Assembly: GCA_024743215.1 (NCBI GenBank)
Contig: JANSWZ010000014.1
Span: 1-64,000 of the forward strand
Length of the DNA stretch: 64,000 nt
Origin: Alphaproteobacteria bacterium
Lineage (GTDB): Bacteria; Pseudomonadota; Alphaproteobacteria; Rhizobiales; GCA-2746425
Reading direction: 5' to 3'
The notes under the pieces are model-generated. The model worked only from the letters and a program-made list of their open reading frames with translations, did not search any database and had not been told where the DNA came from. Both the position numbers and the translations under genes were made by a program. Shown one piece after another: positions 1 to 36,130 of the stretch (position 1 is its first letter; each line of letters opens with the position of its first letter).

Positions 1-10
1 ATGACTTGTG

Positions 11-2809: not shown

Positions 2810-2856
2810 ATGGCCTTCTTGCTCTGTTCTGGGTGTTCAAAAGTGTAACAAGAAGA

Positions 2857-2884
2857 ATAATTATTTACTTTAATGAATAATTAT
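2857..2884. promoter_or_regulatory. AT-rich inverted repeat upstream of fhs
   Basis: Two perfect 9-base arms, ATAATTATT (2857-2865) and AATAATTAT (2876-2884), flank a 10-base spacer. The repeat lies about 55 bases before the fhs start and 47 bases after fdsA. It is too AT-rich and lacks the T-run needed for a convincing terminator, so an operator or promoter element for fhs is more likely. The role is inferred. Confidence 0.35.
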
Positions 2885-2938
2885 GAGAGCTTGCGGCGAA
2901 ATTTTAAACGCATTCATCACCTCAATTCGAGACACATC

Positions 2939-4615
2939 ATGGCATTCAAGACAGACATCGAAATCGCGCGCGAAGCCCACAAACGGCCCATTCAGGAAAT
3001 CGGTGAAAGGCTGGGAATACCGTCTGCAGACCTCGTGCCCTATGGTCATGACAAGGCCAAAGTGAGCGCCGACTTCATTGCTGCACAATCTGGCAAACCG
3101 GATGGCAAGCTCATTCTGGTCACAGCCATAAACCCAACCCCTGCCGGAGAAGGCAAAACAACCACAACTGTCGGGTTGGGTGACGGATTGAATGCGATTG
3201 GTAAGAAGGCTGCGATCTGTATTCGCGAGGCGTCACTTGGTCCCTGCTTCGGCATGAAAGGTGGCGCTGCCGGGGGCGGTTACGCGCAGGTGGTACCGAT
3301 GGAGGATATGAACCTTCATTTCACCGGTGACTTCCATGCCATTACCTCTGCCCATAATCTGCTGTCTGCAATGATCGACAACCACATTTATTGGGGCAAT
3401 GAACTGGGCATTGATAATCGCCGTGTCGTCTGGAAGCGTGTCGTCGATATGAATGACCGCGCCCTCCGGGATGTCGTGACGTCTCTTGGCGGTGTTCCAA
3501 ACGGGTTCCCGCGCCAATCGGGATTCGACATCACCGTAGCCTCAGAAGTCATGGCGATCCTTTGCCTGTCCAATGATCTGGAAGATCTGCAGGCACGTCT
3601 GGGTGATATCATCGTTGCCTATACCCGTGAGCGTGAGCCAATCACCTGTCGTGAGTTGAAGGCCGATGGGGCCATGACGGTGTTGTTGAAGGATGCGATG
3701 CAGCCAAATCTCGTGCAGACATTGGAGAACAATCCGGCCTTTGTTCATGGCGGTCCCTTTGCCAATATTGCTCATGGTTGCAACTCGGTTGTTGCCACCA
3801 AGACGGCCCTTAAGCTTGCTGATTATGTGGTCACCGAAGCTGGCTTCGGCGCAGATCTGGGCGCCGAGAAATTCATGAACATCAAATGCAGAAAAGCCGG
3901 CATTGCTCCGTCCGCAGTTGTCATCGTTGCGACCATCCGCGCGATGAAGATGAATGGCGGCGTGGCCAAAGCAGATTTGGGCGTTGAAAATGTGGGGGCG
4001 GTTCAAGATGGGTGCGCAAACCTGGGTCGACACATTGAGAACATCAAGGGGTTCGGCGTGCCCGCTGTCGTGGCGATCAACCATTTTCATGGGGATACAG
4101 ACGCAGAAATCGAGGCCTGCAAGGCTTACGTGCAGGGCCTGGGATCTGAAGCCATTTTGTGCAAACACTGGGCAGAAGGGTCCAAAGGCACCGAAGAACT
4201 CGCCACCCGCATTGCGCAGATCGCCGATGCTGGCGGTGCCCAATTCCAGACACTCTACCCCGATGAGATGCCATTGATGGAGAAAATCGAAACCATCGCC
4301 AAACGTATCTACCGCGCCAATGAAGTTCTGGCTGACAAGAAAATCCGGGATCAATTGCGCATGTGGGAAAAACAGGGATTTGGCCATCTGCCAATTTGCA
4401 TGGCAAAAACCCAATACTCCTTTTCAACCGATCCCAATCTGCGGGGGGCACCAAGTGGTCACTCCGTACCAGTGCGCGAAGTGCGGCTCTCGGCAGGTGC
4501 CGGATTCATTGTCGTCGTCTGCGGTGAAATCATGACAATGCCGGGTCTGCCAAGAAAACCGAGCGCTGAAGTCATCATGATGAACGAGGATGGCCTGATC
4601 GAAGGTCTTTTCTAA
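2939..4615 (+). CDS. fhs: formate--tetrahydrofolate ligase
   Basis: ATP-dependent ligation of formate to tetrahydrofolate, giving 10-formyl-THF for one-carbon assimilation; it can run in reverse to release formate. The P-loop-like nucleotide motif [10 protein letters not shown] lies near residue 65, as in the family. I place the start at 2939 ([10 protein letters not shown]), giving 558 aa, the usual length; the frame stays open upstream to 2873 but those 22 residues do not look like family sequence. It follows fdsA on the same strand, so the two main fates of formate, oxidation and assimilation, sit side by side. The stop is 4 bases from the convergent NorD-like gene. Confidence 0.95.
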
Positions 4616-4619
4616 AACC

Positions 4620-6929
4620 TCATCCCGTCACCTTGAAGTAAAGCGCTGAAAGGCGCGATGGCAGGTCCTCAATCCTTTCCAGCGGGAAGGTATTTCTTTT
4701 GCCGAAAATGGTTGCGGCGGATTTATGGGCTGACCGGCCAAGCGGGATGCAAAACAGATCCAGACCTTTGGCGCGCGACAAAGCAATTGCCCTGCGGGCA
4801 TCTTCCATCAGATGCCTTGGGTCTTCCATATCAATATCGGAAGGTTCTCCATCGGTGAGCACGATTATGATTTTCCTGCGCGTTTTCTGCTTTTGAAGTG
4901 CGTTGGATAGAAACCTCAGGGCTGAGCCCAGCCGCGTCGACAGGCCGGGTGTCAGATCAGCCAAACGGCCCTGCACTTGCGCACCATCCTCTTCAAACGA
5001 TTTGATGGATGCCAATTGAACATCATCTTTCCCGTTTGATGAAAATGCGAAGACGCCAAAGGCGTCTCCAGCGGCAGACAGTCCCTCCACCAGCAAAGCC
5101 GTCGAAATCACGGCCATCTGGAGAATTGTCTCCTGACCACCTTGCGGAATATCTCCGGTGGATTGAGACATATCAATCAAAAGTCCCAAAGTGACATCGT
5201 TTTTCGCACGCTTTTGTCGAACATAGATCCTTGGGTCAGGGCTCGTACCCTGCTGCAAGGCGATGACAACATCATTGGCGGCATCCATATCAATGATGTC
5301 TCCCTCAAGAGCGCGGCCGGTGGTTTCATAACGCCCGAATTGTGCGTTCCTTGCCAGCACCTCAATTCGGGCAGCCGTCCCGGCATGATGCGAGAGTTTT
5401 TCGGTCAACCAGTTTGGCGACGGTCGGGGCGTCAGAGATTTTTCACGCACCGTGACAAACTCATTCTGGTCGCGCTGCAAGACTTCATTCCATTCCGGGT
5501 AGAGGCCAAGAACAACGCCCAGTTCCTCGTCCTGCGAGGTGGGTTTTTTTCGGGCACGTTCCGAGCCTTCAACATCCTGATCATCTTCGTTCTGAACCGG
5601 GTCCTCCACATCTTCCTTACGGTCCATTTTGGCAGCATCTAGAAAGATTTCCGAGGGCGGCTGATCGGGATTGTCAGCCTCGTCAAAGTCAAACAGGCCC
5701 AGCCCATCATCACGATAGTCTGGCTCGACCGCGTAGGATTTGGGATCAAATGGTATCCGCATCTGCCCCAGGTCATTACCGAGAATCCGTGCGATGCGTT
5801 CAGCCATAAACTGATCCTGAGGCGCGGAGCTGAAGGCTGCGTCAAACAGACGTTGCCCTTTCCTGATCCAACTATCCGAGCATTGGAACGCAGGATCACT
5901 CAAGCCGAGCGCCAGGGTCGTAAATAGGGAATGAATTGTGCGCGCGACCGGCGCGCCTGCTGTTGGTTCAACTGTATGAAAACGCAGCCACATTTGTGCC
6001 AAACCAGGATATTCCTGCGCTGCAAGACGCTCAACCCGTGCATCTTCAATCAGGGATGTCAGCGCAATTTGCATGGGTTTCATGCCCCGGATCGGAAACC
6101 GGTTTTTGGTAAAGCGATTGTGAGCTGCCGCATGAAGGATAGCCGCTTCAAAATAAGCTCCCTGATTGTGCTTATGGCGACGAGGAACCGTTGAGGGCAC
6201 AAGCACAATATTGCCGCGAATTTTCAGCCTCTCCGCTGATGCAGCAGTGATTTCAGCCTGCTCTTTCTGAAGGTTTACATCCGTTTTCCACAAGCAGCGA
6301 ACCAGATGTTTCAAGTGAGCCTCATGCCGGGAGAACTGCCCCCGCCCCTCATAATGCGCCAATTGGGACAGGCTTTTGGGATCACTCAGGCTGAAATAGG
6401 CCAGTCTGCTCTGCTTGCTGTCTGGATAAAGATTGATGCCGTCAATGAGCCATCTGGAAACGTCATCGGGTTCCAGCCTTTGATACAGATTGGGAGACCG
6501 CTTCACGAAGGCCGGGATGGATTCAGGGGCGTTGCGAGCGAGCGCAACAATCCCCTCCAGCAGGCAGAGCGCATGAGCGCGATGCACGTTATTCTGGAAA
6601 AAGGTTTCTCCTGCGCGAATGGCAATGATGGTGCTGCGCGTGCCAACAGACAGGCAGATTTCATGAATTGATTTTGTGATCGCCTCGATGTCGGTTTTTT
6701 GCGATGCCCTGATCGCAGTGCGGTGAAGTGCCCAAAGTGCGGTCAGAACATCAGGCCCGGCATTGGCCTCATAGAGCCTGATAATCGCTCGCTCCCAATT
6801 TTCCGATGGTCCAATTCCGGCAAGCTGTGCAAGCAATGTACGGGTTGATTTATATTCTTTGACAATGAACGATTGACTGCCAAAGCGGTCGGTTAGAAGC
6901 TCTTCCAAATCAAGTTTTCTCTGAAACAC
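4620..6929 (-). CDS. NorD/CbbO-like von Willebrand factor A domain protein
   Basis: A 769-aa protein whose C-terminal about 190 residues form a VWA domain. The metal-binding MIDAS motif DMSQS lies near residue 586, with TDGEPSD further on. An acidic linker rich in D/E precedes it. The N-terminal half looks helical and resembles NorD and CbbO, the partners of NorQ/CbbQ-type AAA+ ATPases. Such pairs remodel or load metal into a target enzyme, for example the nitric oxide reductase iron site or inhibited RuBisCO. Length is closer to CbbO than to NorD. It is the last gene of the amiE-ATPase-VWA operon, 18 bases after the ATPase. No nitric oxide reductase or RuBisCO gene is in the window, so the client is unknown. 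Confidence 0.85.
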   Translation of the reverse strand: MFQRKLDLEELLTDRFGSQSFIVKEYKSTRTLLAQLAGIGPSENWERAIIRLYEANAGPDVLTALWALHRTAIRASQKTDIEAITKSIHEICLSVGTRSTIIAIRAGETFFQNNVHRAHALCLLEGIVALARNAPESIPAFVKRSPNLYQRLEPDDVSRWLIDGINLYPDSKQSRLAYFSLSDPKSLSQLAHYEGRGQFSRHEAHLKHLVRCLWKTDVNLQKEQAEITAASAERLKIRGNIVLVPSTVPRRHKHNQGAYFEAAILHAAAHNRFTKNRFPIRGMKPMQIALTSLIEDARVERLAAQEYPGLAQMWLRFHTVEPTAGAPVARTIHSLFTTLALGLSDPAFQCSDSWIRKGQRLFDAAFSSAPQDQFMAERIARILGNDLGQMRIPFDPKSYAVEPDYRDDGLGLFDFDEADNPDQPPSEIFLDAAKMDRKEDVEDPVQNEDDQDVEGSERARKKPTSQDEELGVVLGLYPEWNEVLQRDQNEFVTVREKSLTPRPSPNWLTEKLSHHAGTAARIEVLARNAQFGRYETTGRALEGDIIDMDAANDVVIALQQGTSPDPRIYVRQKRAKNDVTLGLLIDMSQSTGDIPQGGQETILQMAVISTALLVEGLSAAGDAFGVFAFSSNGKDDVQLASIKSFEEDGAQVQGRLADLTPGLSTRLGSALRFLSNALQKQKTRRKIIIVLTDGEPSDIDMEDPRHLMEDARRAIALSRAKGLDLFCIPLGRSAHKSAATIFGKRNTFPLERIEDLPSRLSALYFKVTG

Positions 6930-6947: not shown

Positions 6948-7745
6948 TCAGATGCAGGCGACAACAGCTGACCGCAATGCCGTCCTGACATGGGCATCGT
7001 CGGTCAACGGTACGATAATCGCCATATCACAGGCATCCGCTACCGGTATGCCCCGCGAGATCAGTTTTCCGGCTCGTATCAATGTCCGTGTTGAAGCACC
7101 TTCCTCCAGGCCATTGTTGCTGAGATTGCGAGAGGCCGTCGCAATGCGAACAAGTTGAGCGGCAATGTCGGCCGAAACACCTGCTTCCCTGACGACAATC
7201 TTTGTTTCAAGCTCCGGATCTGCATGTGCAAAATCCAAAGCAGCGAAGCGCTGCTTGGTGGATTCCTTGAGATCTTTCACGACGCTTTGATATCCCGGGT
7301 TATAGGAAATCACCAAAAAGAAGTCCGGGTGCGCGGCGACAAGTTCGTTCTTTTTCTCCAAATGCAGGGCCCGCCTGTCATCAGTGAGAGGATGAATAAC
7401 GACGGTTGTGTCCTGCCGAGCCTCGACGATTTCATCCAGATAACAAATAGCGCCTTCGCGGACGGCTTGTGTCAGCGGCCCATCTTTCCACACGGTCTCG
7501 CCACCTTCCAACAAGTAACGTCCCACCAGATCAGCAGCCGTCATATCATCATGGCAGGACACGGAAATGAGCGGTCGTTTCATCCGCCAGGCCATATGCT
7601 CAACGAAACGCGTTTTTCCACATCCTGTTGGCCCCTTCAACAAGATCGGAACCCGTTCCTCATAGGCGGCTTGAAAATAGTCCACCTCATTTGCGGCCGG
7701 AGCGTAAAATGGTTCTGCGTCAATGGTAAATTGCTGTAGGGACAT
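6948..7745 (-). CDS. NorQ/CbbQ-type MoxR AAA+ ATPase
   Basis: AAA+ ATPase of the MoxR family, NorQ/CbbQ branch, 265 aa, cytoplasmic. Walker A is GPTGCGKT (residues 38-45) and Walker B is CYLDEI. The sensor region reads VISYNPGYQ, which is typical of CbbQ/NirQ/NorQ. It is encoded between amiE and the VWA gene and should form a hexameric motor that contacts its client through the VWA partner. An 84-base gap with a strong stem-loop separates it from amiE, so it may be expressed less than the amidase. Family assignment is firm; the substrate is not known. Confidence 0.9.
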   Translation of the reverse strand: MSLQQFTIDAEPFYAPAANEVDYFQAAYEERVPILLKGPTGCGKTRFVEHMAWRMKRPLISVSCHDDMTAADLVGRYLLEGGETVWKDGPLTQAVREGAICYLDEIVEARQDTTVVIHPLTDDRRALHLEKKNELVAAHPDFFLVISYNPGYQSVVKDLKESTKQRFAALDFAHADPELETKIVVREAGVSADIAAQLVRIATASRNLSNNGLEEGASTRTLIRAGKLISRGIPVADACDMAIIVPLTDDAHVRTALRSAVVACI

Positions 7746-7829: not shown

Positions 7830-8870
7830 TTATCGATGACCTGAAGAAATTTTGGTCGGGATGCCTTCGATTGGGCAATCCTCAACTCCTGGCGCATCAC
7901 GCGTAAAGCCTTCAACCATATCTCTGGTTCCTTCGGGATCCTCCACCCATTTTTTGTAGAACTCGAACGGCATGGCGCACGTGCCGCGCGGATCGTCGCC
8001 GGAGTTGGTTGTTCCGGTATATCCACGGTGCAGCAGCTTGTAGAGATGGTTTTGACTCTGACTTTTGGCCCGATGTTCTCTGATCAATGGCACCGAGAGC
8101 TGCGCATATTGAATGCCCATTTCCTCGGTTCCACATTCGCCCAGCGTACGCCCGTCAAAGCCGATGATCGATGAGTGACCGAAATAGGTGTAAACCCCAT
8201 CAAAACCAGTAGCATTTGCGACAGCCACATAAGTGTTGTTGGACCACGCCATGGCCTTTGACATAACGATCTGCTGTTCTTTAGCCGGATACATGTAGCC
8301 CTGGCAGCGAACCACTAATTCCGCGCCGCGCATGGCACAATCTCGCCAGATTTCAGGATAATTCCCATCGTCGCAAATGATAAGGCTGATCTTCAAACCC
8401 TTGGGTCCTTCGGACACGTAAGTACAGTCTCCGGGATACCAGCCCTCAATCGGTACCCATGGCATGATTTTCCGGTACTTTTGAACAATCTCACCCTGAT
8501 CGTTCATCAAGATAAGGGTGTTGTAAGGCGCTTTGTTCGGATGTTCTTCATGTTGCTCACCTGTAAGCGAAAATACACCCCAACATTTTGCCTTGCGACA
8601 GGCCTCAGCAAAAATTTCGGTCTCAGCACCCGGTATTGTTGACGCCGTCGCATACATTTCCTCTGCGTCATACATGATACCGTGGGTGGAATATTCGGGA
8701 AAGACGACCAGGTCCATACCCGGCAATCCCTGCTTCATTCCGACCAGCATATCGGCAATTTTTTTGGCATTTTCGATGACATCCGCCTTCGTGTGCAGGC
8801 GCGGCATCTTGTAGTTCACCACGGCCACCCCGACGGTGTCTTTGGTGGAGGTGATATCACCATGTTGCAT
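7830..8870 (-). CDS. amiE: aliphatic amidase
   Basis: Hydrolyses short aliphatic amides (acetamide, propionamide, formamide) to acid and ammonia. It is a cytoplasmic nitrilase-superfamily enzyme, normally a homohexamer. The 346-aa product matches AmiE along its length, and the catalytic residues fall at the canonical positions: E59, K134, E142 and C166 (in [10 protein letters not shown]). The start at 8870 (MQHGDIT) is set by homology and the AGGA just upstream; the frame is open further but those residues are not family-like. It heads the amiE-ATPase-VWA operon. Its leader carries two ANTAR-type hairpins, so AmiR antitermination is expected, as in Pseudomonas. Formamidase is a less good fit. 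Confidence 0.95.
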
Positions 8871-9085
8871 GATCGTTCCTTTCAATTGATGTAAAGCGGA
8901 ACTGAACATTGACCAGCGCACCCAGGCTCTGCAGAAACACAAGCGCAGGGCTGGACCAACGCGAAGGGTCAACGCATTTGAAGCGTTTCTTCACGTTCAG
9001 GCCGGTCGTTTTTTCAAACAGGCGCCGAAAATCGGGAAGTTCAAAAAAAACTTGTTCAGATGAATTCAATATTTGAAATATGGTG

Positions 9086-9174
9086 CCAGACAACTCTGTC
9101 GGGCAATAAATACTCAAATTCCCAATTGGAATCTGATTTCTAACTTCGGGCGCGCCCTGACTACAGTGTCAGGG
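9086..9174 (-). promoter_or_regulatory. dual-hairpin ANTAR target in the amiE leader
   Basis: Read on the minus strand, the first hairpin (9174-9155) has a perfect 7-bp stem CCCTGAC/GTCAGGG and the loop ACTGTA. The second (9102-9086) has the stem CCGAC/GTCTGG with one bulged T and the loop AGAGTT. Both loops have six bases with A at position 1 and G at position 4, the signature of RNAs bound by ANTAR antiterminators. The spacer is 52 bases. A T8 run on the same transcript follows about 35 bases later, ending about 170 bases before amiE. I see no strong terminator hairpin before it. AmiR, encoded at 21276, is the likely ligand. Confidence 0.72.
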
Positions 9175-9516
9175 TCACAGATTTTCTGCCCAATGTGCAA
9201 ATTACCGTTACAGCTTTTTTTTGAAAACGCAATATTAGAAACAGCAATCTGTCAAAATGCCTGAGTTCGATTTGTAGGCGTATTTCTCAAAAAACACGCC
9301 TCCATCGACATTTGCGTAACGAGCCTGCATTTATTGCAAATCCCGGTGATAACGAGGCTATTTTTTGTGCATTAGCCTAATGTTATAGCAAGATTCATCA
9401 GATTTCAGTCAGAATTGAATAATTCAATTTTTCCCTTGTAATGAATATTTTTTTCCTTAAAATCAAAAATAAGATGAGCTACGGTACCAATAATCCAAGC
9501 GATTTACCGGATTGTT
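9175..9516. promoter_or_regulatory. divergent promoter region between the amiE and urt/dmf leaders
   Basis: This stretch is AT-rich and has no open frame I would call a gene. A perfect palindrome, AATTGAAT-A-ATTCAATT, spans 9413-9429 and could be an operator. A candidate rightward sigma-70 promoter is TTGTAA (9436-9441), a 16-base spacer and TAAAAT (9458-9463), which would start transcription about 45 bases before the first rightward hairpin. A weaker inverted repeat AGGCGT/ACGCCT lies at 9276-9301. I see no convincing leftward promoter. The promoter calls are by eye only. Confidence 0.4.
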
Positions 9517-9612
9517 AGTGGCAAGGACAGGGTAGTTTCGCCGCTTACACGATGAAAACTCGAGCACGTGAAGGCGTTTATCGCTTCTCTGTGCCGCCGA
9601 CAGGGCCGTCGG
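9517..9612 (+). promoter_or_regulatory. dual-hairpin ANTAR target in the urt/dmf leader
   Basis: The first hairpin (9517-9545) has an outer stem AGTGGC/GCCGCT, a small internal loop, an inner stem GGAC/GTTT and the six-base loop AGGGTA. The second (9597-9612) has a perfect stem CCGAC/GTCGG and the loop AGGGCC. Both loops have A at position 1 and G at position 4. The spacer is 51 bases, nearly identical to the 52 bases in the divergent amiE leader, and the loop-closing bases are also shared. The transporter start is about 250 bases downstream. Antitermination by AmiR is inferred. Confidence 0.7.
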
Positions 9613-9652
9613 ATTTATACACTCAATCAATGATTGGAAATTTCAGCGCCAG

Positions 9653-9689
9653 ACCGCGCAGCGGTATTTATATGTCTTTTTTCAGACAT
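9653..9689 (+). terminator. candidate attenuator in the urt/dmf leader
   Basis: A short GC hairpin, ACCGC-GCA-GCGGT (9653-9665), is followed 11 bases later by six T (9677-9682). The T-run also lies in a second hairpin, ATGTCT/AGACAT (9672-9689), and overlaps a third possible stem TCAGAC/GTCTGA (9682-9700). The alternatives exclude one another, which suits a conditional terminator 40 bases after the second ANTAR hairpin. The T-run is not directly against the first stem, so this is tentative. Confidence 0.4.
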
Positions 9690-9859
9690 GAAGCGTCTGA
9701 TTATCGATGTTTGAGTTGTTCTGAACGTCCAATCACTTTTGAATATATTTTACAATCACGCCGACTACACAGTTTACACAAACAAACACCCGCATAACTC
9801 AAATAAAATCGACTGAACGAAACACATTCACAAATTATCTTTGAGGGAAAATTTCGAAA

Positions 9860-11167
9860 ATGAGTATTACCAGAAGAAAATTTCTTAAAACTGCCTCCGT
9901 TGGTGCGCTTGCTCTTGCGGCCCCGCATGTTTGGCTTCCCGGAAACCGAGAAGCCTGGGGTGCTACGCTTACAGCTGGCGAGCCCATCAAGGTCGGCCTG
10001 CTGTTCTCCCTGACCGGCGGCCTGGCAGTTCCGGAAGAAGATTCAACACTTGTCATGCAGTACGCAATTGATGAAATCAATGCTGCTGGCGGTATCAACG
10101 GCTCACCGATTGAGCCTGTGATTGTGGATGCGAAATCAGATTTCAAAGTCTACTCATCCAAGACCCGTGAACTGATCCTGCGTGACAAGGTGACATCGAT
10201 CTTTGGTTGTTACACATCGGCTAGCCGCAAAGCCATTTTGCCAATCGTCATGCAGCAGGACAATCTGCTGTTCTACCCGACTTGTTATGAAGGTGCTGAG
10301 TGCACGCAAAACACCATTTGCACCGGACCGCTTGCAAACCAGCACTCAAAGGATTTGATCCCTTACATGGTGGATCAATTTGGACCACGGGTCTTCTTTG
10401 TCGGCTCGAACTATGTATGGCCGAAAGAATCCAACAAAAACGCCAAGGTTTGGCTTGAGCAGGCCAATGGCGAACTGCTTGGCGAAGAATATATCCCGCT
10501 CGGCTCTTCCGAGTTCGGACCTGTTATTGAAAAAATCAGAGCGGCTAAACCGGACTTCATTTTCTCGACTGTCGTGGGCGCTTCCGACATCGCCTTCCAC
10601 CGCCAGTTCAAGCAAGCCGGCCTTAAAGTGGATTCAATGCCAATCGCATCATTGACCACCGGAGAGATCGAAACCAAGGCTATGGGTGCTGAGTTTGGCG
10701 CAGGTCACTTCCTGTCCGCTCCATATTTCCAGGCTCTGGAAAACCCGACCAATGAGAAGTTCGTGGAGAACTTCCTGGGCAGCCCATACGGCAAAAACGG
10801 CACAACTCACTACAATATGGAAGAGACATATACATCCGCTTATGTCTTTAAAGGCGCGCTTGAGAAAGCCATCGCTGACCACGGAATTGAAGATGTCACA
10901 CCACGCAAAATTCGTGATGCGGCTGCCGGTATCAAGCTCAGTGCAGACGTTTCTCCGGAAGGTGAAGTCTGGATTGATGGTGAGAACTTCAACACATGGC
11001 TCGTTCCAAAAATTGGTCAGTGTCAGGCAGATGGCAGCTTCAAGATCGTAAAGGAAGCTCCAGAACACGTCGCTCCGGATCCCTATTCAATCTACCCGGA
11101 CATCGGCAAGTGCACGGCTGACGGCCTGTTGGCACCTGATGGCACCCTTAGAACCGACGTCATTTAA
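9860..11167 (+). CDS. urtA: amide/urea ABC transporter substrate-binding protein (UrtA/FmdD type)
   Basis: Periplasmic binding protein of a branched-chain-type (HAAT) importer for urea or short amides, 435 aa. The N-terminus has a Tat signal with RRKFLK at residues 5-10 and a hydrophobic stretch ending near LPGNREAWGA. The mature part has the type I periplasmic fold, with the GCYTSASRKAILP segment shared by UrtA, FmdD and AmiC. It is first in the operon, behind a 250-base leader with ANTAR hairpins, and is followed by a strong stem-loop that should boost its own message. Because DMFase and amidase genes flank it, formamide or methylated formamides are as likely as urea. Substrate is inferred. 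Confidence 0.88.
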   Translation: MSITRRKFLKTASVGALALAAPHVWLPGNREAWGATLTAGEPIKVGLLFSLTGGLAVPEEDSTLVMQYAIDEINAAGGINGSPIEPVIVDAKSDFKVYSSKTRELILRDKVTSIFGCYTSASRKAILPIVMQQDNLLFYPTCYEGAECTQNTICTGPLANQHSKDLIPYMVDQFGPRVFFVGSNYVWPKESNKNAKVWLEQANGELLGEEYIPLGSSEFGPVIEKIRAAKPDFIFSTVVGASDIAFHRQFKQAGLKVDSMPIASLTTGEIETKAMGAEFGAGHFLSAPYFQALENPTNEKFVENFLGSPYGKNGTTHYNMEETYTSAYVFKGALEKAIADHGIEDVTPRKIRDAAAGIKLSADVSPEGEVWIDGENFNTWLVPKIGQCQADGSFKIVKEAPEHVAPDPYSIYPDIGKCTADGLLAPDGTLRTDVI

Positions 11168-11175
11168 GTGACTTC

Positions 11176-11217
11176 GGGTTTCGGACGCCTGAGAGCATTT
11201 CAAGGCGCCCGAAACCC
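11176..11217 (+). other. strong intercistronic stem-loop after urtA
   Basis: Arms GGGTTTCGG and CCGAAACCC (9 bp), one A/C mismatch, then CGCCT/AGGCG (5 bp) close a 12-base loop. No T-run follows. It lies directly after the binding-protein stop and is typical of elements that protect the upstream message so the binding protein outnumbers the permeases. Confidence 0.6.
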
Positions 11218-11280
11218 TCCCTGTCAAAAGGCCCGCAGGTCTTGAAGCAGACGTTTTAAACATTTGACTGAGAGTGAATT

Positions 11281-12156
11281 ATGGATCCGAGCGTCGTATT
11301 GAGTGCATTGGTGCTGGGAATCAGCATCGGCAGTATCTTTCTGGTTGCAGCTCTGGGGCTCGCCATAATTTACGGCACTGCCGGCGTTATCAACATGGCC
11401 CATGGTGAGCTGATCATGCTTGGCGCCTATACCACCTATACGCTTCAGACCTTTTTGGGCGTCCCCTTCTTTCTTTGTCTCCCGTTGTCATTTTGCATTG
11501 TGGCCCTGGTAGGCATCGCAATCGAGCGCCTTCTGATCCAACATCTTTACAATCGGCCTCTGGACACGCTTCTGGCCACCTGGGGCGTCTCCCTGGTGCT
11601 GATGCAGGGCGTCAGGCTGATCTTTGGCAGCGATCCGAAATATGTTCAGCTGCCTGCATTTCTGTCCACCAATCTTGATCTCGGCATTGTCAACGTATCG
11701 GTTTTCCGGATTTTCGTAGTCCTCGTCGCTGCCCTGCTGGTCTTTGCAACCTGGTACACATTCTACCGGACGCGGTTCGGCATCATGGTGCGCGCCGTAA
11801 CGCAGAACAAAGAGATGGCGGCATCTTTCGGCATCAATTCCGGGAAAACCTACATGCTGACATTTGCCATCGGGGCCGGCCTGGCCGGCGTTGCCGGGGC
11901 TATGTTTGGTGGACTCAACATCGTGCTTCCGACCATGGGCATGAGTTACGTCGTTGAAGCATTCCTGATGGTTGTTTCCGGAGGCGGAAGCCTTTTGGGC
12001 ACCATTCTGGCCAGCGGCTTTACCGGCCAAATGCAATCCATCTTTGCCTTCATCTTCAACGATACGTTCGCACGTTTCCTGATCTTTTTGATGGTTGTCA
12101 TCTTCCTGCGGTTCCGTCCTCAGGGCTTGATCGGCTCGGGCGATACCCGCCGATAA
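11281..12156 (+). CDS. urtB: amide/urea ABC transporter permease (UrtB type)
   Basis: Inner-membrane permease of the LivH/UrtB family, 291 aa, with about eight hydrophobic segments and the family pattern YGTAGVINMAHGE near residue 33. It pairs with the UrtC-like permease encoded 48 bases downstream. Start at the ATG at 11281, following GTGA-rich sequence without a strong ribosome binding site. It belongs to the urtABCDE-dmf operon. Family is clear; whether the cargo is urea or an amide cannot be told from sequence. Confidence 0.88.
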   Translation: MDPSVVLSALVLGISIGSIFLVAALGLAIIYGTAGVINMAHGELIMLGAYTTYTLQTFLGVPFFLCLPLSFCIVALVGIAIERLLIQHLYNRPLDTLLATWGVSLVLMQGVRLIFGSDPKYVQLPAFLSTNLDLGIVNVSVFRIFVVLVAALLVFATWYTFYRTRFGIMVRAVTQNKEMAASFGINSGKTYMLTFAIGAGLAGVAGAMFGGLNIVLPTMGMSYVVEAFLMVVSGGGSLLGTILASGFTGQMQSIFAFIFNDTFARFLIFLMVVIFLRFRPQGLIGSGDTRR

Positions 12157-12204
12157 CCAGAACAGATATCAGACATCTAGAGTAGCTTTGGAGCAGATCC
12201 GACA

Positions 12205-13320
12205 ATGACCATCAACCCCTATCACGATAAGCGTCTTCAATGGGTTGCCTATGCAATTTTCTTCGCGCTGTTGGCGCTGGTTCCAATCCTGCTCGATGAT
12301 GCTTTCCTGTTGAATCAACTTTCAACCTTTGGAGTGTATGGCATCCTGGCCCTGTCTTTGAGCTTGTGCTGGGGATTTGGCGGCATTCTGAATCTCGGTC
12401 AGGGCATTGCGTTTGGTCTTGGTGCCTATGGCATGGCCATGACCATGCAAATGCAGTCGCAGGACATCGATACCAATCCCATCCCGCCATTTATGCTCAA
12501 CAATGCACTTGAGAGCCTGCCCATGATCTGGGAGCCATTCTGGAATACCGGAACAGGCATTTTCCTCGCGGTAGCAATACCCACACTGTACTGCCTCATA
12601 TTCGGCGCGCTGATGTTTCAGGCACGCGTCTCCGGGCCGTTCTTTGCGATCATGACACTTGCAATGTTAAGTGCATTTTACACGGTTTTCATCGATCTGC
12701 AGCCCTACACAAATGGCGTGAATGGCATTTCACCACCGATGCCTTTGGAAGTGGGCTCACTGGTTGTTGATCCCTATTCCACAACATCTTACTGGATCGT
12801 TTATGCGGTCCTGTTGTTGTCCACCGTTGTTGCCAAATTGTTGACGCAAAGCAAATTCGGGCTGATCGTTCGCGCCCAGAACAATGATCCGGAGCGCGTC
12901 CGATTCCTCGGCTACAATGTCGCTGTTTATGAAACCCTGATTTACGCAATATCTGGCTGCATGGCTGCCTTGGCCGGGATGTGTTTCACATTCCTGACCC
13001 AATATGTCTCGCCAAGCCAGTTTGATGTCGGGTTCAGCATCTCAATCGTTATCTGGGCAGCCATTGGCGGGCGTGGATCCCTGTTGTGGGCCATTATGGG
13101 GGCCTTCATTGTCCAGGGCGCACAGAGCTATCTTGGTGATGAATTCCTCAACACCTGGATTTTGATCCTTGGTTTCTTCTTCATTCTGGTTGTCAGGTTC
13201 CTGCCTGGCGGTCTTGCAGGGCTGGTCGAGCTCATTCTGGGCAAGCTTCCAAACATGTCCAAGCAACAGAAAAGTCCCGGCGAAAAGCCCGTGGACAAAG
13301 CATCCCTGAAGGAGGCATGA
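12205..13320 (+). CDS. urtC: amide/urea ABC transporter permease (UrtC type)
   Basis: Second inner-membrane permease, LivM/UrtC family, 371 aa. The conserved segment GFGGILNLGQGIAFGLGAY lies near residue 57, and several transmembrane helices follow. A hydrophilic C-terminal tail ends in a lysine-rich stretch. It is encoded 48 bases after urtB, and a GGAGG just before its own stop serves the next gene, urtD. Confidence 0.88.
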   Translation: MTINPYHDKRLQWVAYAIFFALLALVPILLDDAFLLNQLSTFGVYGILALSLSLCWGFGGILNLGQGIAFGLGAYGMAMTMQMQSQDIDTNPIPPFMLNNALESLPMIWEPFWNTGTGIFLAVAIPTLYCLIFGALMFQARVSGPFFAIMTLAMLSAFYTVFIDLQPYTNGVNGISPPMPLEVGSLVVDPYSTTSYWIVYAVLLLSTVVAKLLTQSKFGLIVRAQNNDPERVRFLGYNVAVYETLIYAISGCMAALAGMCFTFLTQYVSPSQFDVGFSISIVIWAAIGGRGSLLWAIMGAFIVQGAQSYLGDEFLNTWILILGFFFILVVRFLPGGLAGLVELILGKLPNMSKQQKSPGEKPVDKASLKEA

Positions 13321-13323
13321 TTC

Positions 13324-14067
13324 ATGGCTGGTGTTCTTGAAATACAAAACCTCCAGAAGAATTTTGACGCTGTCAAAGTCATCAATGATTTCAGTATGGA
13401 CGTTATTGAGCTGACATTATGCTGCCTGGTCGGCCCCAATGGTGCTGGCAAAACCACAACCATGGATTTGATTACCGGTCGGCAAAAGCCAACCTCCGGC
13501 AGTGTGACTTTTCGCGGCCATGTGATTACGGGCGAGAATGAACAAATGATTGCACGACGCGGGCTGGGACGGAAATTCCAGATTCCCGCAGTGTTTCGTG
13601 AATTGACCGTCAGGCAAAACCTGGAAGTGGCTTACAGCCATGAGGTCAACGCGCTCAAGAATATCTTCAGCTTTTCGTCCAGGCAGTGCGACGCGCGCAT
13701 AGATGAGGTCGCCGAACAGGTTGGCTTGCAAGAGCGACTTGCAGTGATTGCCGGCACGCTCTCCCATGGCGAAACACAGTGGCTCGAAATCGGGATGGTT
13801 CTCATGCAGGACCCTGCCCTGCTGCTTCTGGATGAGCCAGTGGCGGGAATGACCGAGCAGGAAATCGAGAAGACAGCCGATATTCTGAACACGATGAAGA
13901 AAACAAAAACCCTGATCGTTGTTGAGCATGACATGGGTTTTGTGCGCGAGATTGCGGACATTGTAACCGTTATGCATATGGGATCGCTCCTTGCGCAGGG
14001 CACGATTCAGGAGATCGAAACCAATCAACAGGTCCGTGACGTTTATCTTGGAACGGAGGATCACTGA
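13324..14067 (+). CDS. urtD: amide/urea ABC transporter ATP-binding protein (UrtD type)
   Basis: LivG/UrtD-type ATPase, 247 aa, on the cytoplasmic face of the transporter. Walker A GPNGAGKTTT is near residue 38. The signature is the variant LSHGETQWLEIG, which is typical of UrtD rather than the usual LSGGQ. Walker B is LLLLDEPVAGM. A strong GGAGG ribosome binding site sits 9 bases before the ATG. The last base of its stop is the first base of the urtE start. Confidence 0.9.
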   Translation: MAGVLEIQNLQKNFDAVKVINDFSMDVIELTLCCLVGPNGAGKTTTMDLITGRQKPTSGSVTFRGHVITGENEQMIARRGLGRKFQIPAVFRELTVRQNLEVAYSHEVNALKNIFSFSSRQCDARIDEVAEQVGLQERLAVIAGTLSHGETQWLEIGMVLMQDPALLLLDEPVAGMTEQEIEKTADILNTMKKTKTLIVVEHDMGFVREIADIVTVMHMGSLLAQGTIQEIETNQQVRDVYLGTEDH

Positions 14068-14765
14068 TGCTGCTCAATCTTCAGGACGTATCATCATTTT
14101 ATGGCAACACCCGCATTCTGCGAAATGTGACAATGGGCGTGGCAAAGGGCAGCTGTCTTTGCGTTTTGGGACGAAACGGGGTTGGCAAAACCACACTCGT
14201 GAAAACCATTATGGGCCTGACCGACAAGATCGAGGGTGAAATACACCTCGATGGCGCTGATTTGAGTGCAAGCCGGACAGATGAGCGCGCCAAATGCGGT
14301 ATTGGTTACATCCCACAGGGCCGACAGATACTTGGCAAATTCACCGTTCGGGAGAACATTCTGCTCGGCACCTTTGCAAGGGCCGATGAGAGCACGACGA
14401 TTCCCGACATCTGCCTGGAGCTGTTTCCTTACCTGAAAGAGAATCTGAACCGCAGAGCGGGTCTTTTGTCAGGCGGTCAGCAACAGCAACTGGCCATTGC
14501 CCGAGCGCTGGCGGTCAACCCGCAAATTTTGCTTCTGGATGAACCGACCGAGGGTATTCAGCCGAACATCGTTGCTGAAATCGGCGAGACGCTCAAGATG
14601 CTGAACAAGGAGCTGGGCATCACGCTTGTGCTGACCGAACAGCACATCAAAGTCGCCCGCAAGCTCGGCGATGAATTTGTGATGATGGACAATGGCCGCG
14701 TCGTGGACAGCGGACCGATAGCGGAACTCACCGACGACGTTGTGGAGCGGCACATGACGGTGTGA
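14067..14765 (+). CDS. urtE: amide/urea ABC transporter ATP-binding protein (UrtE type)
   Basis: LivF/UrtE-type ATPase, 232 aa, second nucleotide-binding subunit of the importer. Walker A is GRNGVGKTTL, the signature LSGGQQQQLAIARAL and Walker B LLLDEPTEGIQPN, as expected for UrtE. Its ATG overlaps the urtD stop by one base, which suggests translational coupling. The DMFase small-subunit gene begins 60 bases downstream on the same strand. Confidence 0.9.
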   Translation: MLLNLQDVSSFYGNTRILRNVTMGVAKGSCLCVLGRNGVGKTTLVKTIMGLTDKIEGEIHLDGADLSASRTDERAKCGIGYIPQGRQILGKFTVRENILLGTFARADESTTIPDICLELFPYLKENLNRRAGLLSGGQQQQLAIARALAVNPQILLLDEPTEGIQPNIVAEIGETLKMLNKELGITLVLTEQHIKVARKLGDEFVMMDNGRVVDSGPIAELTDDVVERHMTV

Positions 14766-14825: not shown

Positions 14826-15266
14826 ATGATTAGTATACCGCCTGCTGGCTCTCCGGAGAGAGAGGCCTTGATCGCAGAACACAAAGCATGCGTCGATTCC
14901 ATGAAGGGTGTCGCTGGGTTTTCGATCTTGAAATGCGAAACACCAGGAGACACGACTGTGGTGTCCGGTGGTGTTCATGAATCGCCGCTTTTGAAACGCG
15001 TTTTGTTGCGTATGCGTGGCGAGTCTCCTGCCGGAAAGCTTATTGTTGTCTGTACCAAAGTCGAAGCCGAATGGCGCATTGCGCGCTTGTCCGGCATCCG
15101 GGGTGTTCCGCCCGAATTCATTGATGACAAAGTCTATGATTGCGAACAGGAGATTCAGCACGAGATTTTTCTGATGCGCCTTGATGAACTGCCGGAATCT
15201 GCGGGAATGCCTGAAGATTACCATGAAGGCTGGAAGCGTAGAAGTGACAATTGGCCGGTGACCTGA
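14826..15266 (+). CDS. dmfA1: N,N-dimethylformamidase small (alpha) subunit
   Basis: Small subunit of the DMFase that hydrolyses dimethylformamide to dimethylamine and formate, 146 aa, cytoplasmic. The identification rests on a recalled match to DmfA1 of Alcaligenes/Paracoccus: an HxSPxLxRV segment, then an EW...R segment, and a C-terminal block ending FLxRxxxL, in the same order and spacing. The next gene is the large subunit, as in known dmfA1A2 loci. The family subunit is about 130 aa, so this one is slightly longer. A purine-rich AGGGAAAGG precedes the ATG. It has no motif of its own that suggests catalysis. Confidence 0.82.
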   Translation: MISIPPAGSPEREALIAEHKACVDSMKGVAGFSILKCETPGDTTVVSGGVHESPLLKRVLLRMRGESPAGKLIVVCTKVEAEWRIARLSGIRGVPPEFIDDKVYDCEQEIQHEIFLMRLDELPESAGMPEDYHEGWKRRSDNWPVT

Positions 15267-15279
15267 GCAGCCTTTCCAC

Positions 15280-15370
15280 AATCGTGGATGCTGTAACCAG
15301 CTGATTAAGTGACGGAAATAATTGGAATTAAAAAACACGCTTCGGCGTGAATGGCAGCGCTTTACCTGCC
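15280..15370 (+). other. cluster of stem-loops between dmfA1 and dmfA2
   Basis: Three hairpins fill the 126-base gap: CCAC-AATC-GTGG near 15280-15291; CACGC-TTCG-GCGTG at 15336-15349, which has the extra-stable UUCG tetraloop; and GGCAG/CTGCC at 15353-15370 with an 8-base loop. The second is preceded by a run of A, so on the minus strand it would look like a terminator, but no gene lies on that strand. A role in subunit balance is inferred. Confidence 0.5.
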
Positions 15371-15392
15371 GCTATGTCTAAGGAGAACTGAA

Positions 15393-17762
15393 ATGAGTTC
15401 AATGAGGTTGACTGGATATGCCGATAAATTCGGTGTGCACCCAGGCGAGAGCATCAAGTTTTATGTCAATTGCGACGGACCTTCCCAGTACAAGGCCGAA
15501 ATTGTACAGATGATCAATGGAGACACGAACCCGCGCGGTCCCGGCTTCATTGAAAAGCCTGTCCCCGGCTCGTTGGAAGAAACCGTTTCCGGCCGCAAAC
15601 AGATCATCCATGGCGGCTCTTACGGGTTTGTTCCTGATTGTAACGCTCTCAATGTGGAGAGCTTTACCCTGCAGTGCTGGGTCTGGCCGACAACACCCAT
15701 TACCCATCCGAAATACTGGAAACATGGCGCCCAGGGTCTGGTCACAAAATGGTCGGATGACGTTGGCTATGGCCTGTTCATCAACGAGAAGGGCCATGCA
15801 GAAGTCCGCATCAATGGTGAAAAGCTGGAATCCACAACCCCGCTTCGTGACCATGCTTGGCATTTCCTGGCAGCGACCTTCGATGCCAAAACCGGCAAGC
15901 TGATACTGATCCATGAACCGCAAATCGAATATGCTCTGGATCCGGTGATTGAGCCTGTCGAAATGACGATTTCCGGCAAGCTGAAAAACACGTCCACCCC
16001 GTTGGCCATGGCAGCCTATGTGGATGGTGTGAGCGAAGATCCGCTCGCAGCTTCTTCCCTGCCAGCTGGCATCACTTTTGCCGGCAAATACAATGGCAAA
16101 CTGGATACTCCGCGTCTGTGTGCAAAAGCTTTGTCACGCGCTGAAATCGAAATGATGAAACTGGGCGCTCAGCCTGGTCTGACAGAAAGACGTAACAGTG
16201 GCCCAACTGGACCCTTGTCTGAAGTCATTGTTGGTGCTTGGGAATTTTCTGAAGGCATCAGCACACTCGTGGCTACGGATTTTGGCCCTTACCGACTGGA
16301 TGCAACACTGGTCAACTGCCCGACACGCGGTCTGACAGGTCATAACTGGTCTGGAACAACCTTTGACTGGAAACAGTCACCGGGTGAATATGGTGCCATC
16401 CATTTCCATGATGATGATGTCGACAATGCACGCTGGGATGTCGATTTTGAATGGACCGTTCCCGACGATTGCAAAAGCCGGTTCTATGCCGCAAAGCTGA
16501 CAACACCCGAAGGCGATGAAGATTACATTCCTTTCTGGGTGGTTCCGGAAATTGGCGATGAGCAGTCGAAAATCGCGGTCATGGTTCCGACAATCAGCTA
16601 CATGGCCTACGCCAATGAGCACGTCGCCTGTAATGCAGGTGGTGCCGAGTTGTTCATCTATCGTGTGCCCATCATGCAGCATCAGAACATGTTCCTTGCC
16701 GAGCACAGAGAATATGGCGGATCGATCTACGATACCCATACGGATGGTTCCGGTATCTGCCTGTCGTCAAGACTGCGCCCGATCCTGAGCATCAGACCAA
16801 AATACGATCACTTCCTGGCCCAGGCGCCATGGCAATATCCAGCCGATCTGCATCTGATCTACTGGTTGGAAACCATGGGCTATGAGTATGATGTCTTCAC
16901 CGATGAGGACCTCACCTATGATGGACTGGCACGTATTGAGAACTACAGTGTCATCATCACCGGTTCTCACCCGGAACATAATACGGGCACCCAGTTGGAT
17001 GCTCTGCACAACTATACGCAGCGCGGTGGTCGCATCATGTATATGGGTGCTGATGCCTGGTATTGGGTCCACTCGTTCCACCCCGCCTATGACGAACTTG
17101 GTCGCGGTGTGATGACTGAGATGCGCCGTTGTGAGTCAGGTATTCGGACCTGGCGTGCAGACCCAGGTGAATATTACCATCAGGGCACCGGAGAACTGGG
17201 AGGCATGTGGCGCTTCCGAGGGCGATATCTGCATTCTGTTGCAGGTGTCGGCATGTCTTCTGAAGGTTTTGACATTTCATCCTATTTCTCGCGGACGCCG
17301 GAAAGTAATGATGACCGTGTCTCATGGGCCTTTGAAGGCATTGAGTATGACGAAATGCTCGGCAATTTCGGCCTGGTCGGTGGCGGTGCTGCCGGTCTTG
17401 AGCTGGATATCGTTGACACCATGCTGGGTTCGCCCCCACACACATTAACGGTTGCAACATCCGCTGGGCGCCACACAGAAGCCTACCTTCTGGTGATGGA
17501 AGATTTCGGATTTAACCAGCAGGGTCTCGATGGCACAACGCATCCGCGTGTTCGCGGTGATATTGCCTATCACGAGACACCCAATGGTGGTGCGTGCTTC
17601 GCCTTCTCATCGATTGCCTTCTGCGGATCGCTTCCATGGAACAATTGCGACAACAACATCTCCAAACTTGTGCAGAACGTGTTGGATCGCTTTGCGGTAC
17701 CAGGACCCTTGCCTGCGGCACCTGCGGACGCGATCAAATATCGCGGACGTGCAGACTACTAA
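15393..17762 (+). CDS. dmfA2: N,N-dimethylformamidase large (beta) subunit
   Basis: Catalytic subunit of DMFase, 789 aa, cytoplasmic. The N-terminal half holds a beta-sandwich of the LamG/concanavalin type (about residues 60-260); the C-terminal half is the amidohydrolase region. Known DMFase holds a mononuclear iron through two tyrosines and one glutamate. The matching residues are present here: Y406 in AYANE, Y446 in SIYD and E528 in GSHPE. The start at 15393 (MSSMRLTGYAD) has an AAGGAGA ribosome binding site; the frame is open upstream but not family-like. It follows dmfA1 after a hairpin-rich gap. The product formate suits the fds and fhs genes, and dimethylamine feeds the methylamine pathway after one demethylation not encoded here. 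Confidence 0.92.
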   Translation: MSSMRLTGYADKFGVHPGESIKFYVNCDGPSQYKAEIVQMINGDTNPRGPGFIEKPVPGSLEETVSGRKQIIHGGSYGFVPDCNALNVESFTLQCWVWPTTPITHPKYWKHGAQGLVTKWSDDVGYGLFINEKGHAEVRINGEKLESTTPLRDHAWHFLAATFDAKTGKLILIHEPQIEYALDPVIEPVEMTISGKLKNTSTPLAMAAYVDGVSEDPLAASSLPAGITFAGKYNGKLDTPRLCAKALSRAEIEMMKLGAQPGLTERRNSGPTGPLSEVIVGAWEFSEGISTLVATDFGPYRLDATLVNCPTRGLTGHNWSGTTFDWKQSPGEYGAIHFHDDDVDNARWDVDFEWTVPDDCKSRFYAAKLTTPEGDEDYIPFWVVPEIGDEQSKIAVMVPTISYMAYANEHVACNAGGAELFIYRVPIMQHQNMFLAEHREYGGSIYDTHTDGSGICLSSRLRPILSIRPKYDHFLAQAPWQYPADLHLIYWLETMGYEYDVFTDEDLTYDGLARIENYSVIITGSHPEHNTGTQLDALHNYTQRGGRIMYMGADAWYWVHSFHPAYDELGRGVMTEMRRCESGIRTWRADPGEYYHQGTGELGGMWRFRGRYLHSVAGVGMSSEGFDISSYFSRTPESNDDRVSWAFEGIEYDEMLGNFGLVGGGAAGLELDIVDTMLGSPPHTLTVATSAGRHTEAYLLVMEDFGFNQQGLDGTTHPRVRGDIAYHETPNGGACFAFSSIAFCGSLPWNNCDNNISKLVQNVLDRFAVPGPLPAAPADAIKYRGRADY

Positions 17763-17774
17763 GCCGACAAAAAA

Positions 17775-17802
17775 GCCGTCAGCTCAATTCAGAGCTGGCG
17801 GC
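17775..17802 (+). other. stem-loop after dmfA2
   Basis: Arms GCCGTCAGCTC (17775-17785) and GAGCTGGCGGC (17792-17802) give 11 pairs, one a T/G wobble, closing the loop AATTCA. There is no T-run, so it is an intercistronic stability or processing element rather than an operon end. The loop lacks G at position 4, so it is not an ANTAR site. Confidence 0.5.
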
Positions 17803-17863
17803 ACCTGTATCAGTACCAGCGGCCTTTTACCACAAATGCCGCAAAAGTCGGAGGAAGAAGCAC

Positions 17864-23044: not shown

Positions 23045-23101
23045 AGGTTTTCAAACGTGCGTGAATTCACTGTCACGAACCAACAAATGATGAGGCTGTA
23101 A

Positions 23102-23797: not shown

Positions 23798-23833
23798 ACC
23801 CATGGCTGTCGTATCAAGTAAAGGACGAAAAAA

Positions 23834-25546: not shown

Positions 25547-25550
25547 TCCA

Positions 25551-29417: not shown

Positions 29418-29427
29418 GGATGAGGCA

Positions 29428-33246: not shown

Positions 33247-33388
33247 GCCAATCACAAGCTACGAATGACCGCGGACCACACTGAGCCTGCGTGTATTTGA
33301 AGATAGTGCGCTGACATCATTGTTATCGTGTCAGGAATGCCGCCCGGGGTCGCGGAATACATCCGGGAACCCAGGGGCCAGGCATGTT

Positions 33389-34720: not shown

Positions 34721-34768
34721 TTTCAGTCCTCAACAATGTCGTGGTAGTGGATCATGTTTTTCAGAATA

Positions 34769-36118: not shown

Positions 36119-36130
36119 GATCGGACTTCC

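Follow-up and report, generated by a model that had tools for sequence, protein, structure and literature searches.

A 64,000-nucleotide (nt) stretch of alphaproteobacterial DNA (contig JANSWZ010000014.1, positions 1 to 64,000; "the window" below) contains an intergenic region at 8871-9859 that separates amiE, a leftward gene for an aliphatic amidase whose start codon is at 8870, from a rightward urtA-like gene that starts at 9860. The best reading of this region, and one that we consider probable, is that it encodes two diverging leader RNAs that respond to AmiR, an ANTAR-type regulator. It is also likely that these leaders are related to the AmiC-AmiR attenuators that accompany amide and urea genes on plasmids of Hyphomicrobiales and in genomes of the window's order. 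If this is true, then one amide sensor controls an amidase, an uptake system, N,N-dimethylformamidase (DMFase), and urease by way of leaders that face each other. Switches of this kind are known; the assignment to DMFase, an additional hairpin that we call P3, and the altered middle of the leaders are variants on it.

Each leader contains two hairpins whose six-base loops have A at position 1 and G at position 4 (A1/G4 hexaloops). A first-pass annotation of this DNA had pointed out these hairpins, and all four can be read directly in the sequence. In the amiE leader (minus strand), P1 (9155-9174; CCCTGAC-ACTGTA-GTCAGGG) has seven perfect pairs, and P3 (9086-9103; CCCGAC-AGAGTT-GTCTGG) has a GAC/GTC closing, then one C.U mismatch, and then two pairs. 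In the urtA leader (plus strand), P1 (9525-9538; GGAC-AGGGTA-GTTT) has a weak stem of one C-G, one A-U, and two G.U pairs, and P3 (9597-9612; CCGAC-AGGGCC-GTCGG) has five perfect pairs, with letters identical to those of a P3 from Ancylobacter. The closing is GAC/GTC in three hairpins and GAC/GTT in the other, as annotated. The spacers had been given as 52 and 51 bases. This holds for the amiE leader (51-52 nt from P1 to P3); in the urtA leader the distance is 58 nt from the short P1 and becomes 51-52 nt only if an enclosing stem, GTGGC/GCCGC (9518-9544, plus strand, -7.7 kcal/mol in our fold), is counted as part of P1. In the minimum-energy fold of the amiE leader, P1 is likewise surrounded by an outer stem, TTGGGC/GCCCGAA (9145-9193, minus strand). 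Of 100 shuffled versions of the amiE leader, none folds as well as the leader itself (z = -3.29).

On both strands of the 64 kb, two ANNGNN hairpins of five pairs or more are closed by GAC/GTC, and both are in these leaders; lowering the minimum to four pairs gives three, versus 0.6 expected (the mean of 30 first-order Markov sequences). If the closing is ignored, then ANNGNN hairpins of five pairs or more show no enrichment (27 versus 26.6 expected). A spaced pair, GACANNGNNGT-N45-75-GACANNGNNGTC, has three matches in the 5.09-Mb genome, of which two are these leaders, back to back, while a control pattern has two; this count is only descriptive, because we framed the pattern after seeing the leaders. 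We took the third copy (C12:311250) to be due to chance, as tblastn of 18 window proteins against its locus gave no match.

As annotated, an AmiC-AmiR pair is encoded in the rightward operon: amiC (20112-21263, plus strand) has AmiC 1PEA as its best match in PDB (E = 9.9e-89), and the adjacent amiR (21276-21881, plus strand) has AmiR 1QO0 chain D (E = 1.3e-23). The predicted AmiR has both AmiR_N (PF21332, E = 1.1e-30) and, at its C terminus, ANTAR (PF03861, E = 2.1e-13), and its ANTAR domain can be aligned with those of its relatives and with known ANTAR domains. It has a histidine at the "A-aromatic" position, as do the AmiRs of Pseudomonas aeruginosa PA7, P. piscis, and Alcanivorax.

We found AmiR relatives in 38 of the 397 genomes of the window's order (E ≤ 1e-20, including the window's own genome) and in 199 plasmid records (E ≤ 1e-5). 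Viral contigs that were scanned for AmiR had no relative, and a search of plasmids with the intergenic DNA itself gave no match. We fetched 20 genome loci (19 of the best-scoring ones, plus the distant G004), four plasmid loci, and, later, more. In the close group, the leader lies between amiR and urtA, amiE, or another gene of the operon, and 23 leaders share one plan: P1, a short linker, P2 (GGC-NNNGNN-GCC), a strong terminator, a run of T, and then, in most of them, P3. The 3' arm of P2 is the base of the terminator, and a typical P3 is CCGAC-ARGGNN-GTCGG, beyond the U-tract. The 45-nt folds before the T-run range from -17.7 to -30.5 kcal/mol in the 23 leaders, and when three relatives were scanned in the same way as the window, their terminator hairpins were at -23.0 to -24.2 kcal/mol. 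The plan was not seen in leader scans of the distant AmiR loci G395 and G004 or of the closer G159. Some relatives have more than one leader: Shinella has one before urtA and one before ureE, and Ancylobacter has one before urtA and one before norQ.

Because the canonical pair in the relatives is P1 and P2, with P3 past the terminator, the pairs of hairpins in the window are P1 and P3, rather than the known ANTAR pair, as had been annotated. In the textbook layout, P1 is followed by P2, which overlaps the terminator (PMC3369931). The EutV target of the eut genes (Ramesh et al. 2012) has two A1/G4 hexaloops with linkers of 5-12 nt (PMC3369931), and linkers of 3 nt, 14 nt, or 20 additional nt impair the action of EutV (PMC3369931, PMC8934654). 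The spacing of 51-58 nt in the window is outside of this range. In 18 leaders of the relatives that we aligned, the linker between P1 and P2 is 9-12 nt by alignment columns (and less in rows that have a longer P1 stem). The eut range is not universal, since in the amiE leader of P. aeruginosa PA7 this linker is about 28 nt by eye. Also, in the first published search for ANTAR targets, only about 30% of the matches in ANTAR-encoding genomes overlapped a terminator (PMC3369931).

For the alignment we selected 18 of the 23 leaders on the basis of their having P3, and left out G363, G351, G143, G374, and G210 (G143 also has P3, and is a near-repeat of G170). The P1 loop has A1 in 16 rows and G4 in all 18, although P1 is uncertain in Agrobacterium and Rhizobium. 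The P2 loop also has G4 in all 18, while position 1 is A in six, T in six, and G in six. That P2 keeps G4 and not A1 fits the structure of EutV, in which G4 makes the sole base-specific contact and A1 makes none (PMC8934654). In that paper it is also argued that the dimer meets the hexaloops one after the other. For P3, the presence of A1 and G4 in the alignment is partly by construction, because of how the rows were picked.

To score P3 more broadly, we counted any ANNGNN hairpin of four or more pairs in the 70 nt that follow the T-run of the terminator. Such a hairpin is present in 22 of 25 leaders, as compared to 202 of 4,600 random 70-mers from the same loci (4.4%). A safer count is 21 of 25, because the hairpin in G374, which is 54 nt away, is probably due to chance; the other 21 begin 4-26 nt past the T-run. 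(The G654 leader has P3 as well; it and G061 are outside of the count of 25.) G363, G351, and G210 have P1, P2, and the terminator, and no A1/G4 hairpin in the following 70 nt. Among seven gammaproteobacterial amiE leaders (PA7, four other Pseudomonas, Alcanivorax, and Alloalcanivorax), none has a P3-type hairpin between the U-tract and the start codon, where 33-64 nt could be scored. In one relative, G132, the stems of P1 and P3 match each other by eye, so that P1 could pair with P3.

The first-pass annotation had named conservation and covariation in related loci as the things to look for, and both are found in the 18 relatives (17 distinct rows, all chosen for P3). With P1, the terminator, and P3 taken together, 88.7% of the cells are paired, versus 75.6% if shuffled and at most 47.9% if the structure is slid along the alignment. 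Changes on both sides occur in 12 of the 21 pairs, for a score of 0.397 (0.173 when shuffled and at most 0.127 when slid). For P3 alone, 97.6% of the cells are paired, and three of its five pairs have changes on both sides. P2 is uninformative about covariation, as its three pairs are invariant.

We then built a covariance model, R1, from the leaders of the 18 relatives, with no sequence from the window. Within the window, the two best matches to R1 are the urtA leader (9520-9613, plus strand, 26.4 bits, E = 2e-5) and the amiE leader (9086-9176, minus strand, 18.7 bits, E = 0.0021), and the next has E = 0.27 (these E-values are rough). In both, the first hairpin is aligned to the P1 of the model. 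The urtA leader is also the second-best match of the entire genome (E = 0.0016). At E ≤ 1e-5, R1 matches 19 of the 397 genomes of the order, once each, and 18 of these 19 matches are on the same strand as amiR and within 170 nt downstream of it. Twelve of the 19 genomes contributed rows to the model. Of the other seven, six have the match beside amiR (G143, G374, G351, G210, G363, and G061) and G318 does not. Conversely, among the 18 genomes with a close AmiR (above 170 bits, leaving out the window's own), 17 have an R1 match and G159 has none. In a sample of 385 genomes from the class, R1 matches three genomes from one genus, each time between amiR and urtA; P3 was part of the model that picked these three out. 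We also note that plasmid pB of Ancylobacter polymorphus has a second R1 match (L062, 25311-25409, minus strand, 34.1 bits). It comprises an AGCGTC hexaloop and a terminator, immediately upstream of norQ-norD. So the NorQ/NorD-like partners of the amidase in Ancylobacter appear to have an AmiR-type leader of their own.

Several observations weigh against our reading. The best match to R1 in the genome (27.4 bits, C5:197778) reads as an ordinary terminator, and we dismissed it; C3:399552 also looks like an ordinary terminator from its sequence and was set aside. The amiE leader is not among the 10 genome matches listed, though its score would rank fourth (150 of 1,731 first-look candidates were scored). 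An antisense stretch at the end of the DMFase gene of plasmid pAMI2 (L253, 5012-5110), which we took to be a chance match after reading it, scores 18.6 bits, as compared to 18.7 bits for the amiE leader. Given the 27.4-bit terminator and the 18.6-bit antisense match, R1 scores are modest evidence on their own, above all for the amiE leader; the strength of the R1 evidence lies in where the two best matches in the window fall. Rfam has nothing at its gathering score in the window, and at E ≤ 10 it has just two irrelevant matches in 8860-9870. The single P3 motif, SSGACANNGNNGTCSS, is not enriched in the genome (15 matches, versus 31 for a reversed-pattern control). The fold of the urtA leader is no better than those of shuffled sequences (z = -0.48), and its P1 stem is weak. 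By eye, we did not find a canonical P2 (GGC-NNNGNN-GCC) in either leader of the window, and a terminator scan did not find a strong terminator in either. What stands in the terminator's place is an AT-rich hairpin of 9 bp in the amiE leader (9114-9136, minus strand, -9.3 kcal/mol, with the tail GTATTTATTG) and another hairpin in the urtA leader (9539-9576, plus strand, -9.6 kcal/mol, followed by TTTATCGCTTCT). These are weak terminators at best: their U-tracts are poor, and there is no run of T after these middle hairpins. Finally, two gaps in the rightward gene run contain strong hairpins, one after urtA (11168-11280, -41.0 kcal/mol) and one after dmfA2, which encodes the large subunit of DMFase (17763-17863, -39.3 kcal/mol), so a single full-length transcript is not assured.

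Traces of the missing middle may remain. In the urtA leader, the stem that encloses P1 has a 3' arm in common with the start of the middle hairpin's 5' arm, in the way that P2 overlaps the terminator in the relatives. In the amiE leader, the 3' arm of the outer stem includes GCCCG and would stand at the place of the GCCCG that the relatives have at the P2/terminator base. The stems that enclose P1 in the two leaders may be P1 and P2 fused.

Is it plausible that these leaders no longer do anything? They could be remnants of ancestral ANTAR attenuators that have lost P2 and the terminator, in front of operons that are constitutive or are controlled only at their promoters. The state of the middle and the weak P1 of the urtA leader are what one would expect from decay, as is the gap between the R1 scores of the window (26.4 and 18.7 bits) and those of the 19 matches in the relatives (34 to 87 bits). 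Nevertheless, A1/G4 hexaloops, GAC closing, P3, and a similar spacing are retained on both strands, and AmiR retains an ANTAR domain that aligns with known ones. We think that decay is unlikely. A different view of the inverted repeats is that they are DNA operators for a DNA-binding regulator and never act as RNA. Short palindromes are common near promoters, and P3 is palindromic outside of its loop. But in the relatives, G4 is present in all 18 copies of P1, P2, and P3 on the transcribed strand (with rows chosen for P3), P2 and P3 are separated by an intrinsic terminator, and the neighboring amiR encodes an RNA-binding type of domain, which makes this view hard to credit.

Two other alternatives accept the hairpins as RNA and move the controlled step downstream. 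P3 might be the first hairpin of a second, tandem attenuator with a further stop beyond it, which would be compatible with AmiR-responsive leaders but would work differently. The Rhizobium etli leader (L222, 6985-7201) has P1, P2, a terminator, a hairpin with the A1/G4 hexaloop AAAGAA, and a second terminator, and because of that second terminator, P3 may have begun in this way. The Ciceribacter leader (L224, from 6980) is similar in having two tandem terminators, and its later stem is not an A1/G4 hairpin in our scan. Candidates past P3 with broken T-tails occur in two of the three relatives that we scanned (Aminobacter, -14.2 kcal/mol, and G031, -21.1 kcal/mol). In the window, the urtA leader has a terminator-like site 40 nt past P3 (ACCGCGCAGCGGT, then ATTTATATGTCTTTTTT) and other folded candidates at -10.6 to -12.1 kcal/mol. 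However, no later candidate is directly followed by an unbroken T-run, the sole candidate found in the amiE leader (72 nt before the start codon) is at -6.1 kcal/mol, and the scan that gave the terminator-like site found two such sites where shuffled sequences give 1.1. We regard a tandem attenuator as possible and somewhat unlikely. Alternatively, Rho-dependent termination in a C-rich stretch past P3 might be the controlled step and be blocked when AmiR sits on P3. In the urtA leader past P3, the best 78-nt stretch has 23 C and 6 G, and this excess of 17 is above the 95th percentile of random stretches of the window (15) but below the 99th (19); in the amiE leader the excess is 6, versus a median of 8. 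As it is suggestive on the urtA side only, we did not adopt it, and we consider it very improbable.

Under the reading that we prefer, in which both leaders respond to AmiR, the binding of an amide (DMF or another) by AmiC would lead to the release of AmiR, which would then bind the A1/G4 hexaloops on both nascent leaders. RNA polymerase would be let through into amiE-norQ-norD on one side and, on the other, into urtABCDE-dmfA1A2-...-amiC-amiR-urease, with each gene run presumably acting as a transcription unit, and the amidase, the uptake system, DMFase, urease, and the sensor itself would rise together. The comparisons support ANTAR targeting of the window's leaders, and we are less sure that intrinsic antitermination is what controls read-through than that AmiR binds. 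The weakest step follows from the unrecognizable P2 and terminator: the switch may be leaky, or it may work through its weak middle hairpins. A bolder idea, which is possible but which we would not bet on, is that alphaproteobacterial AmiR attenuators are switches with three hexaloops, and that the window has dropped P2 and the terminator and kept P1 and P3 on both strands, as a two-way switch for DMF catabolism that lacks the textbook overlap. P3 may then be a third site for AmiR that acts after read-through, for example by holding AmiR on the transcript or by serving a second stop. More generally, a conserved third hexaloop breaks with the two-hairpin ANTAR target in a way that can be tested.

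Behind the two leaders are the genes for amidase, Urt-type uptake, DMFase, and urease, as annotated. To the left (minus strand), amiE (7830-8870; NF009802, 693 bits with a cut-off of 427) is followed by genes for a CbbQ/NorQ-type ATPase (6948-7745) and a VWA-domain (NorD-like) protein (4620-6929). To the right (plus strand), the first gene encodes a UrtA-like substrate-binding protein with a Tat signal (9860-11167), and it is followed by ABC transporter genes whose homologues are annotated as urtBCDE (11281-14765), by an open reading frame (ORF) that resembles the small subunit of DMFase (dmfA1, 14826-15266), and by dmfA2 (15351-17762, PF20254). The identification of dmfA1 is based on its position beside dmfA2 and its conservation with it, as it has no match in Pfam or NCBIfam at E = 0.001. 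Three more ORFs precede amiC, and amiR is followed by urease genes (21897-27070): ureE, ureF, ureAB, ureC, ureG, and a probable ureD that was assigned by position only. All of these rightward genes have the same direction, the gaps between them are at most 113 nt, and none of the 17 gaps contains a run of five T; they may form one transcript. The strong hairpins after urtA and dmfA2 may trim or protect the transcript. Elsewhere in the same genome there is a second pair of AmiC-like and AmiR-like proteins (31.6% and 26.5% identity; G000:C4:397077-397607 and its neighborhood, L196) and a third ANTAR protein (G000:C10:205709-205870), and cross-talk between these proteins and the leaders is possible.

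A DMFase-like large subunit is encoded in 58 of the 385 genomes of the class sample (E ≤ 1e-100, including the window's own) and in 77 plasmid records. We examined 31 stretches from 30 records: 24 of the other 57 genomes and six of the 77 plasmids. For 20 of the genomes the flanks reach about 10 kb at most, as some contigs are short; the other four, of family f132, account for five stretches and have a urt-dmf operon like that of the window. None of these stretches has an AmiR match (E ≤ 1e-3), and AmiC matches occur only where UrtA matches better. R1 matches none of the first 26 at E ≤ 0.1; its top match in the remaining five is the antisense stretch of pAMI2, with all others at E of at least 0.1. 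In three of the four f132 genomes, the leader is out of view because the contig begins inside or after urtA; the complete one, G682, has no GAC-closed A1/G4 hairpin in the 736 nt before urtA. On some plasmids of Agrobacterium and Rhizobium, an AmiR relative and a distant DMFase are both encoded, at least tens of kilobases from each other.

The closest operons by gene content each share part of the arrangement. The urtABCDE-dmfA1A2 operons of the f132 genomes have the same order of transporter and DMFase genes (with DMFase 74-76% identical), and plasmid pAMI5 of Paracoccus aminophilus has dmf with a urtA-like gene (DMFase 68% identical), but the stretches that we fetched have no match to amiR or to R1, with the leader off the contig in three of the f132 genomes. 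Next to dmf, pAMI5 encodes a histidine kinase and a response regulator; pAMI2 has a LuxR-type regulator. Conversely, the amiC-amiR-[leader]-urt/amiE/urease clusters of Shinella, Aminobacter, Ancylobacter, Agrobacterium, and others have the gene set in various orders, the same leader elements, and the leader beside amiR, but we saw no match to DMFase in the surrounding DNA that we retrieved. The window is arranged differently: amiC and amiR are internal to its operon, and its two leaders, ahead of amiE and urtA, face one another. Among known systems, the AmiC-AmiR attenuator of amiE in P. aeruginosa has a homologous sensor and RNA-binding protein (1PEA and 1QO0). In strain PA7, amiE lies behind a leader with a terminator and a P1 with an A1/G4 hexaloop (GCATC-AGCGTC-GATGT), whereas P2, as we read it (AGAGC-AAATGG-GCTCT), has A1 but not G4. 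The PA7 leader is directly before amiE, with 34 nt from the U-tract to the ATG and no A1/G4 hairpin there. The window differs in having two diverging leaders, P3 in both, no recognizable P2, and genes for Urt uptake, DMFase, and urease behind them. As for the EutV target, the window shares with it the A1/G4 hexaloops, two per leader, and the AC/GU closing pairs of P1 and P3, and differs in the distance from P1 to the next hexaloop and in the lack of a recognizable P2. The relatives share its P1-P2 spacing and the overlap of P2 with the terminator, and differ in having a third hexaloop past the terminator and in the scarcity of A1 in P2 (6 of 18 rows).

The annotation had suggested that this use of an amide sensor was new for DMF catabolism. 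ANTAR control of amidase genes is known, and ANTAR control of urea-transporter genes has been predicted (PMC3369931). Also, a 2026 report describes a plasmid operon with amiE, amiC, amiR, and ABC transporter genes (PMC13209695). On the other hand, our literature searches found no link between DMFase and antitermination, and did not find ANTAR combined with amidase, urease, and a leader. P3 as a conserved third hairpin and the use of the switch for DMF both look new, with the caveat that the third hairpin may figure in the supplements of PMC3369931.

Next to the amidase operon, at 8-4615, are an ORF that, to judge from its sequence, resembles formate dehydrogenase and another that resembles formate-tetrahydrofolate ligase; these would fit with formate as a product of DMF breakdown. 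The genome also encodes a second, distant DMFase-like protein (G000:C5:64022-65455, 39% identity). Finally, in Shinella, genes for sarcosine oxidase and for glutamine-synthetase-type and glutamate-synthase proteins are annotated beside amiC (L035, 5297-16562), and the ORFs at 28167-36814 of the window may match them, judging by size and order only.

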